Below, one piece after another: positions 43,998 to 45,513 of a stretch of DNA of 60,004 nucleotides. A program made the position numbers and the translations under genes. The notes under the pieces are model-generated. The model was not told where the DNA came from, did no database searches, and worked only from the letters and a program-made list of their open reading frames with translations. This DNA comes from Sphingobacteriia bacterium 24-36-13 (GTDB taxonomy: Bacteria > Bacteroidota > Bacteroidia > Chitinophagales > Chitinophagaceae). The DNA is taken from positions 1-60,004 of the forward strand of contig NCHN01000019.1 of the NCBI GenBank assembly GCA_002281875.1. The letters run 5' to 3'. Position 1 is the stretch's first letter. Every line of letters begins with the position of its first letter.

Positions 43998-44615
43998 TTA
44001 TTTCTGAATTAAAACGATAGAACCGTTATGACCTGGTACAGAACCGCTGATCAGGATATAGTTCTTTTCTGAAAATATTTTAACTACTTTCAAACCTTTC
44101 ATTTTAACACGGTCACCACCCATACGACCGGCCATTCTCATTCCTTTAAATACTCTTGCAGGGTATGATGATCCACCAATAGAACCTGGAGCACGTTGAC
44201 GATCGTGCTGGCCATGAGATGCTTCACCCACACCAGAGAATCCATGGCGCTTTACAACACCCTGAAAACCTTTACCCTTAGTAGTACCAACAACCTCAAC
44301 ACTGTCTCCTTCAGAGAAGATGTCAATAGTTACGGTTTCCCCTAAGTTTTTCTCTATTGAGTAATTACGAAATTCTTTTACGAATTTTTTGGCTGGAGTT
44401 TGAGCCTTAGCAAAGTGATTGATTTCGGCTTTTGTAGCGTGCTTTTCTTTCTTGTCGCCGATTGCTAATTGAACAGCAGAATAACCATCGGTTTCCTGTG
44501 TTTTGATTTGTGTAACGGTATTTGGAGCAACTTCTACGATGGTACAAGCTGTTTGCTTTCCATCAGCAGCGAAGATGCTGGTCATCCCGATTTTTTTTCC
44601 AATAATTCCTTTCAT
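43998..44615 (-). CDS. rplC: 50S ribosomal protein L3
   Basis: uL3 (205 aa), an early 50S assembly protein. [20 protein letters not shown] and the conserved Gln-methylation-site region [20 protein letters not shown] are present (the methylated residue itself cannot be judged). It is separated from rpsJ by an unusually long, structured 291-nt gap. Confidence 0.98.
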
Positions 44616-44906
44616 CGTTTTGCGGTTTATGCCCCGCTCGGTTATGAGGACATCCCACCGATGAAGCGGGATTCAATCCTAGTTTGCTACCGACCTTTTC
44701 CTTTGTTTTCAAAATTTACATTTTGAAGGGGAAGTACCGGTAGTAAACAAACCTCGAAGGGCCTGTTTATATGTTACTCATTTAATTCATTGTGAACTAA
44801 ATGATTTATAATTTCTTTATCAGAGCTGCTTTTTCAGGCCGGAGCCGATTGGCAGATAATTGGGTATATAAGAACTAGTTTCTCTCTTTCTAGAGAATTG
44901 GCTTTA
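44616..44906 (-). ncRNA. Candidate structured 5' leader of rplC (ribosomal-protein regulatory RNA)
   Basis: On the minus strand four elements stand out. (1) 44778-44804: a 12-bp stem (one G-U) with CAA loop. (2) 44682-44748: an 11-bp outer stem, GTTTACTACCG against CGGTAGCAAAC with one mismatch. (3) Inside it, 44708-44727: an 8-bp stem TTCAAAAT/ATTTTGAA capped by GTAA, a GNRA loop. (4) 44633-44670: CCCGCT-bulge-CGGT paired with ACCG-AGCGGG, ending 17 nt before the rplC AUG. The gap has no convincing ORF, and none of the hairpins has a T-tract, so they do not look like terminators. I infer a cis-acting regulatory leader. I cannot say whether it belongs to a described RNA family. Confidence 0.55.
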
Positions 44907-45212
44907 TCAAGCTTTAATTTCAACCTCAACACCAGACGGCAAGTCTAGTTTGCTCAACGCATCTACTGTTCTAGAAGAAGAAGTGTAGATATCCATTAGA
45001 CGCTTGTGCGTTGCTAATTGGAACTGCTCACGGCTTTTCTTATTAACGTGTGGTGAACGCAATACAGTAAAGATTTTCTTATGAGTAGGCAAAGGAATTG
45101 GTCCTGTTACTACTGCACCTGTACTACGTACTGTCTTAACGATCTTCTCTGCAGATTTATCTACTAGATTGTGATCGTATGATTGTAATTTGATTCTGAT
45201 TCGCTGAGACAT
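44907..45212 (-). CDS. rpsJ: 30S ribosomal protein S10
   Basis: uS10 (101 aa), in the 30S head and also NusE in antitermination. [20 protein letters not shown], then [20 protein letters not shown], is diagnostic. I use the ATG at 45212 (MSQRIRIK); the open extension upstream crosses the promoter. It has its own promoter after the fusA terminator. Confidence 0.97.
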
Positions 45213-45242: not shown

Positions 45243-45273
45243 CAAAGGTAAGGAGCTGTAATTGAATAGACAA
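45243..45273 (-). promoter_or_regulatory. rpsJ (S10 cluster) promoter
   Basis: On the minus strand TTG (45273-45271), a 20-nt spacer and TACCTTTG (45250-45243) fit the Bacteroidota consensus exactly. The ATG is 30 nt downstream. It probably drives S10 and the genes beyond. Confidence 0.75.
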
Positions 45274-45376: not shown

Positions 45377-45468
45377 AATATAACTGATCCTCTTTGCATT
45401 TTTGGTTCCAATATTCAGTCTTTACAAATTTAAGCGGCAGCTACACTCCCACCACTAATAAAACAAAA

Positions 45469-45490
45469 CGCCCCGAGTAAACTCGGGGCG
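45469..45490 (-). terminator. fusA terminator
   Basis: CGCCCCGAG / CTCGGGGCG form a perfect 9-bp GC-rich stem with a 4-nt loop, followed on the minus strand by TTTTGTTTTATT, 23 nt after the fusA stop. A strong intrinsic terminator. Confidence 0.92.
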
Positions 45491-45513
45491 CGGTATATCA
45501 ATTAAATGGATAA

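Follow-up and report, generated by a model that had tools for sequence, protein, structure and literature searches.

Gene context of the rpsJ-rplC gap

The window analysed here, a 60,004-nt stretch of DNA from Sphingobacteriia bacterium 24-36-13 (Chitinophagaceae), carries a ribosomal-protein cluster on its minus strand. In this cluster rpsJ is followed by rplC and then by rplD, rplW, rplB, rpsS, rplV, rpsC, rplP, rpmC, rpsQ and the spc genes to rplO, the names having been assigned from the sequences and the gene order. Between rpsJ and rplC lies a gap that is occupied by a conserved structured RNA, and the genes for L3 and L4 are the first two behind it. The features of the surrounding locus are as follows.

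45468-45491, minus strand: intrinsic terminator after fusA
45243..45273, minus strand: Bacteroidetes-type promoter, TTG-N20-TACCTTTG, a pattern match, predicted to start the S10 operon at rpsJ
44907..45212, minus strand: rpsJ (S10), a 101-aa ORF; the gene ahead of the leader and outside its control in the proposed model
44616-44906, minus strand: rpsJ-rplC gap, 291 nt from the rpsJ stop to the rplC AUG
43998..44615, minus strand: rplC (L3), an ORF; the first controlled gene in the proposed model

A preliminary description of this DNA had singled out the gap for its length and its capacity to fold, and both points hold. The remaining gaps from rpsJ to rplO span 5-122 nt, with a single 1-nt overlap. 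The predicted folding energy of the 291-nt gap is -79.8 kcal/mol against a mean of -57.05 kcal/mol for 200 dinucleotide shuffles (z -4.32), all 200 of which it beats. Our family sample comprised 110 rpsJ-rplC gaps of Chitinophagaceae, 107 of which could be parsed for length. The gap is conserved among these relatives in both sequence and length, with lengths of 74-495 nt (median 279 nt) in a bimodal distribution, which arises because one of the two modules described below, module B, is absent in about one third of the family.

Transcription signals

The promoter pattern ends 30 nt ahead of rpsJ in the window. Of 30 family loci, 28 have it in the 250 nt that precede rpsJ, and in 26 of the 30 it ends 28-31 nt before the gene; one of the two loci without a match, L009, has merely 41 nt of upstream sequence. 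No match was found inside the rpsJ-rplC gap in any of the 30 loci. Since the promoter lies close ahead of rpsJ and none lies in the gap, the 5' UTR of rpsJ is probably very short and the structured RNA internal to the unit, in keeping with the earlier placing of rpsJ ahead of the structure. Hence rpsJ is probably the first gene of its unit, with a 5' UTR too short to hold a leader, and it is likely that rpsJ and rplC form one transcription unit.

No terminator-like site was found in the gap of the window, in line with the earlier remark that its elements lack T-tracts; the sole nearby site is the one that follows fusA. With the fusA terminator followed by the rpsJ promoter, the str and S10 units look separated in the window.

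Module A

Two modules could be recognised by aligning the gaps of relatives. The first, module A, lies towards rpsJ and is preceded by a conserved box.

44869..44876, minus strand: conserved AGTTCTTA box 5' of module A
44819..44860, minus strand: module A, arranged as stem1 [AUC] stem2 - loop - stem2' [GCUCU] stem1', 7 pairs

Module A had gone unnoticed in the preliminary description. It was found in 101 of the 110 family loci, eight of them in a doubtful register in which the third letter is not C; a slightly different finder rule placed it in 100 of 107 loci and left seven without it. GTTCTT or GCTCTT stands ahead of the module in 82 of the 101 loci. Throughout the family the internal loop is fixed, usually as AUC opposite GCKCU, and the terminal loop is variable.

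The pairing of module A was assessed in two alignments. Alignment A3 omits the four forms longer than 75 nt and keeps 76 of the remaining 96 sequences, ten long and ten short ones having been removed by hand under no fixed rule, and alignment A2 consists of all 22 short forms. The proportion of paired cells is 88.5% in A3 and 88.9% in A2, values reached by none of 500 shuffles in either case, with the reservation that stem2 was part of the selection rule and its 100% pairing is there by construction. In both alignments the number of cells changed on both sides and the covariation score were also beyond all 500 shuffles. Two further measures discriminate less: the number of pairs changed on both sides was reached by 337 of 500 shuffles with the 76 sequences and by 10 of 500 with the short forms, and the number of further pair types by 82 and 12 of 500, respectively.

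In many genomes that lack module B (L065, L069, L099 and L108 among them) module A has a loop CCACACA, which was unseen in the module A of those that carry module B. Carriers and non-carriers thus differ in this module too.

Module B

Downstream of module A the window holds a linker hairpin followed by a larger domain with five helices.

44776..44806, minus strand: linker hairpin between modules A and B, seen in the fold; its sequence is not conserved
44745..44768, minus strand: P1, AAACAGGCC-CUUCGA-GGUUUGUUU, the most conserved helix
44687..44743, minus strand: P2, CUACCGG..GGUCGGUAG, an internal loop and UUCC..GGAA, enclosing P3; covarying
44708-44727, minus strand: P3, a variable hairpin with a GNRA loop
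44647..44680, minus strand: P4, AGGA-UUGA-AUCCC...GGGAU-G-UCCU, with a conserved UUGA/G internal loop
44622..44637, minus strand: P5, GCGG-GGCAUAAA-CCGC, separated by 6 nt from the rplC AUG

This domain redraws some of what had been described from the single sequence. The 12-bp hairpin at 44778-44804 is present as the linker hairpin, and the 8-bp GNRA hairpin at 44708-44727 as P3; neither belongs to the conserved core, P3 varying in sequence and length and being missing in several relatives. The 11-bp outer stem at 44682-44692/44738-44748 survives in part, in that its CUACCG/CGGUAG portion falls in the covarying P2 and its GUUU/AAAC end makes use of the 3' strand of P1, a helix that had been overlooked. 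The two-part GC-rich hairpin proposed at 44633-44670 is not conserved, and the alignment supports P4 and P5 in its place.

Covariation of module B was counted in alignment A1, which holds 58 of the 62 sequences found by regular expression among 107 loci; four of more than 200 nt were omitted, and carriers of variant P1 helices are absent from it. Over 32 pairs, 95.1% of 1846 cells are paired and 19 pairs are changed on both sides. None of 500 shuffles reached the observed value on any of five measures, and partners slid along the alignment pair in 37-54% of cells, a comparison that favours the proposed structure since it was derived from the alignment used for counting. P1 is paired in 99.8% of cells and is mostly invariant, with the consensus AAACAAGCC/GGUUUGUUU and an invariant UUC loop, so that its pairing rests on few changes and provides little evidence. 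In the lower part of P2 six of seven pairs are changed on both sides with 93.8% of cells paired, and in P4 seven of eight pairs are so changed. P5, a manual addition to the structure prediction, is paired in 86.9% of cells; its strict GCGG/CCGC form occurs in 39 of the 110 loci, loci lacking module B among them. Many unpaired positions are nearly invariant, namely the UUC loop, the GUAC/AAGG internal loop (UAC/AAGG as the internal loop of P2 in the family alignment) and GAUUGA.

Two partners are conceivable for the 3' strand of P1, GGUUUGUUU, namely the AAACAAG upstream in P1 itself and a second conserved AAAC(AAG) that follows P2 (44745-44768, 44680-44692). Exchange between them would make a possible switch, in letters too invariant to speak for or against it.

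Compensatory change on the L3 tree

As related sequences are not independent, pair changes were also counted on a tree of the L3 proteins, whose alignment has no columns in common with the RNA. Taking the minimum of switches from one Watson-Crick type to another on this tree allows for kinship. The tree comprises 110 family rows and eight outgroup rows and was built by a quick method, with 42 of its 115 inner branches weak. At least 129 compensatory changes were found over 19 pairs of module B, and slid partners gave 37 (-1), 27 (+1) and 15 (+2). Each of the four inner pairs of P4 accounts for 13-18 least changes. For module A the figure, given without a slid control, is at least 79 changes over its 7 pairs. 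Most of the covariation evidence comes from P2, P4 and the stem1 and stem2 of module A. Covarying pairs in relatives, which had been set beforehand as the check on the structure, are therefore found in both modules, by shuffles and on the L3 tree.

Distribution and history of the two modules

A search with a model of module B (R1) matched 97 of 144 family genomes and 68 of 100 genera, once in each genome. In a sample of 345 genomes of the class R1 matched six, five in the family and one false; the latter, in G363 from another family (E 6.5e-4), was dismissed as it lies in an unrelated region. The P1 pattern was found in at least 118 stretches. Among those listed, 115 lie 131-245 nt before rplC and the other three, cut by the end of their stretch, lie directly behind S10. 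No match to this pattern was found in viral contigs. In a sample of 99 genomes from the order, model R2 matched five, every one a family genome; the sample's three family genomes without module B escaped it, indicating that it is weak on short forms. By eye, neither module was seen in 25 non-family loci (from the 29 loci L118-L146, two of which belong to the family and two of which yielded no S10), nor in the four genomes L381-L384 from another family of the same order. Long rpsJ-rplC gaps do occur in other families (309 nt in L384, 402 nt in L129), with neither module visible by eye.

For the tree, the presence of module B was scored by two short motifs (present in 78 of 110 rows) and not by R1; at least one row, G075 (L085), was scored as present without an R1 match. 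Presence so scored requires two changes on the L3 tree against a mean of 27.8 when shuffled, and 0 of 500 shuffles reached the observed number. One change is at a basal split between carriers and a group of 29 lacking the module, and the event may have been either a gain in one group or a loss in the other. The second change is the loss of module B in three genera (L059, L067 and L109), in which module A is kept. In these three, the distance from the end of GCKCU to the AUG is 17-19 nt, much as in most of the basal group. Overall, this distance is 14-24 nt (median 18 nt) in 28 of the 32 loci lacking module B. The count leaves aside L032, L036, L056 and L104, where module A and the AUG are separated by 60-110 nt of other sequence.

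Three of the latter, L032, L056 and L104, with gaps of 216-249 nt, display a third architecture, in which a short-form module A and the start of rplC are about 90-110 nt apart with no module B between them. Furthermore, L085 and L097 have a reduced module B, in which a P2-like (A/G)GUACUUC..GAAAAGGU is retained and the remainder has drifted.

A predicted contact between P1 and P5

The GCC at the top of P1 is complementary to the GGC of the P5 loop. In 74 sequences with module B this GGC stops 13-30 nt short of the AUG (median 15 nt). Pairing is seen in 724 of 815 cells over 163 distinct sequences, in comparison to 436 and 365 when the partner is slid by -1 and -2. These sequences remain after 5 of 168 without an anchor were dropped, and the anchor rule, which admits GGC, GGT, AGC, TGC and GGA, favours GGC-like triplets. 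Position 17 is paired in 162 of the 163, in two of them through a C-to-U change that a G-to-A change on the other side compensates. At position 18, the fourth, we found C-G in 111 sequences, G-C in five, U-G in three and A-U in one, with no standard pair in 43 of 163 (A-A in 26). The counts at positions 17 and 18 were reached by 0 of 2000 shuffles, a control that does not allow for kinship; positions 15 and 16 are uninformative and position 19, the fifth, is no better than shuffled (1635 of 2000 shuffles reach its count).

Judging by these letters, the GCC of P1 probably forms a kissing contact or pseudoknot with the GGC loop of P5, and we propose that it acts as a gate. If formed, the contact would fall in the 30S landing zone, at about the same distance from the AUG as does GCKCU in genomes lacking module B, and this is the main reason for our view that both modules may act on initiation.

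Likeness to ribosomal RNA

Some ribosomal-protein leaders mimic the rRNA site of their ligand, although mimicry is not required of them. Model R2 gave no match in three 23S loci and R1 gave one weak match there (15.2 bits, E 0.017), which lies outside the rRNA. In the 23S rRNA of G004, GUUCUUUAAUAACGG and GGGCGCUUAG stand at a spacing of about 40 nt, similar to that in the short forms of module A. We compared sets of module sequences with rRNAs by their mean best local score, in 18 set-by-rRNA comparisons with 25 shuffles each. The sole standout was that of the 22 short forms with the G004 23S rRNA (z 3.6). The same short forms gave z -0.4 and 0.3 with the other two 23S rRNAs and 0.2 to 1.0 with three 16S rRNAs, and 40 long forms gave -1.4 to 0.4 with 23S.

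The commonest best-match place was the 23S 600-650 bin in five of six comparisons of module A with 23S. L4 may crosslink near this 23S site, although the literature searched showed no such crosslink. The segment was seen in 12 of 14 rRNA rows, and GCGCU is present in 5 of the 12 and GUUCUU in 6 of the 12. The letters thus vary over 12 rRNAs though the loop is fixed in the leader, and we rejected both mimicry of 23S and an assignment of L4 by likeness.

In five genomes (G005, G014, G069, G106 and G141) the 23S matches came in pieces, several of which meet near model positions 565/573, 1301/1311 and 2043/2045. These may be either intervening sequences or a search artefact.

Comparison with known leaders

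A comparison with known RNA families, also foreseen in the preliminary description, gave no Rfam 15 family at its gathering score in the window or in 20 relatives. Three matches fell below threshold, the best being FuFi-1 at 18.6 bits (E 0.071), for which the gathering score is 59.6. We found no such leader in the literature searched, the scope of which does not take in a 2017 set of 224 candidate RNAs.

The E. coli S10 (L4) leader lies before rpsJ, also controls S10 and uses a terminator for attenuation, and the S10 r-leader of Firmicutes is placed before rpsJ too. The RNA of Chitinophagaceae belongs to the same operon as the E. coli leader, is likewise an untranslated RNA ahead of the genes it is thought to control, and is also proposed to act autogenously. 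In contrast to the E. coli leader, it follows rpsJ, has two modules, contains no terminator-like site and gives no Rfam match at the gathering score. A position before rpsJ of the E. coli type is not seen here, as a promoter 28-31 nt before the gene (26 of 30 loci) leaves little room, and an attenuation terminator is likewise missing from the gap of the window. According to PMC7186457, which names the 5' UTR of the S10 operon, L4 is a feedback regulator of this operon in E. coli.

Several further leaders are covered in PMC7247131 (Eckert and Weinberg 2020), of which we draw on excerpts. The L4 leader of Archaeoglobi similarly precedes rplC, rplD, rplW and rplB; it is archaeal and is rated borderline there, and the likeness is one of gene position alone. 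Leaders for S4, L13, S15, S16 and L19 in Bacteroidia and Flavobacteria come from the same phylum and combine covariation with a fixed gene context; they belong to other operons, and among those in Table 1 none precedes rplC in Bacteroidetes (PMC7247131). The Firmicutes S10 r-leader shares a ribosomal operon that includes rpsJ, and is likened here by name and operon alone (PMC7247131). No leader before rplC is named in the excerpted text of PMC2864571, and none in Bacteroidetes in that of PMC7247131.

A covarying conserved structure and a consistent position upstream of ribosomal-protein genes are criteria for an r-leader, and both are found for the gap RNA. From its sequence and placing we regard it as a new candidate r-leader; the ribosomal-protein leader reading given at the outset is supported, and the regulatory function itself we infer.

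A model for internal control of the S10 operon

We think it probable that the gap RNA is a cis-acting internal leader that regulates translation of L3, L4 and the genes beyond, sparing S10. In such a model transcription would begin just before rpsJ, and S10 would be translated from a very short 5' UTR. The RNA after rpsJ would fold into the module A hairpin and the larger module B domain (P1-P5). An operon protein present in excess would bind module A and/or module B and stabilise the fold over the 30S landing site on rplC. Translation of rplC would then fall, that of the genes behind it would fall by coupling, and S10 would escape. In most genomes lacking module B it would be the GCKCU of module A itself that lies about 18 nt before the AUG, and in those carrying it P5 and its GGC loop would occupy about the same place.

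L4 appears to be the likeliest ligand, with something near an even chance of being the right one, and L3 the next. Three points favour L4, all by analogy or gene order: its gene is the second of the block that would be controlled, the protein regulates the S10 operon in E. coli, and it is the proposed ligand of the archaeal leader before rplC.

A cis-regulatory RNA of rplC could instead sense a metabolite, an ion, an initiation factor or the ribosome in the manner of a riboswitch. Module B is large, a good number of its unpaired positions hardly vary, as might be expected of a ligand pocket, and no mimicry of rRNA was established. We nevertheless consider this unlikely. Metabolite riboswitches usually stand before genes of metabolic pathways and often occur several times in a genome, ahead of several genes, whereas the RNA described here is present as a single copy per genome and lies before rplC in the stretches examined. 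In addition, known ribosomal-protein operons encode the ligand in a regulated gene, according to the excerpts of PMC7247131.

An element for mRNA processing or stability, at which a nuclease cut would split off the rpsJ transcript and the 5' end of the rplC message would be protected with no feedback, seems improbable as well. It would suit the position between two genes of what is likely one unit, stable hairpins could set differential stability, and the linker hairpin and P3 vary freely. However, the conserved internal loops, the near-invariant unpaired bases throughout the domain and the narrow spacing to the AUG point to translation instead of cleavage. It is very hard to credit a transcription attenuator with alternative terminator and antiterminator folds, given that the only terminator-like site near the gap in the window is that after fusA. 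An independent small RNA encoded between rpsJ and rplC would be structured, conserved and single-copy as observed, and is equally implausible in view of the narrow distance to the rplC AUG, the lack of a promoter pattern in any of the 30 gaps searched and the placing before rplC in 115 of the 118 listed stretches, with the other three after S10.

The preferred reading, that of an internal translational leader, bears on a phylum whose ribosomes fail to recognise Shine-Dalgarno sequences, as stated in the parts of PMC9976891 used here. We found no account in the literature searched of how Bacteroidota restrain the S10 operon. For this the gap RNA provides a concrete and testable candidate, whose internal position would uncouple S10 from the rest of the operon and which offers two modules of mapped gain or loss and helices backed by covariation. 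In our model it probably serves to reduce the output of a set of ribosomal proteins once enough have been made.

The two modules could serve different ends. A more tentative proposal, which we hold to be possible and on balance doubtful, is that of a dual-sensor leader in which two structurally unrelated modules respond to different signals, for example two operon proteins, and act on the same 30S site. Control by module A would be the older in this scheme, module B having joined it or dropped out, and the P1-P5 contact would serve as the gate. If this were so, a natural deletion would already exist, for one sub-clade has apparently lost module B and has module A beside the start codon.
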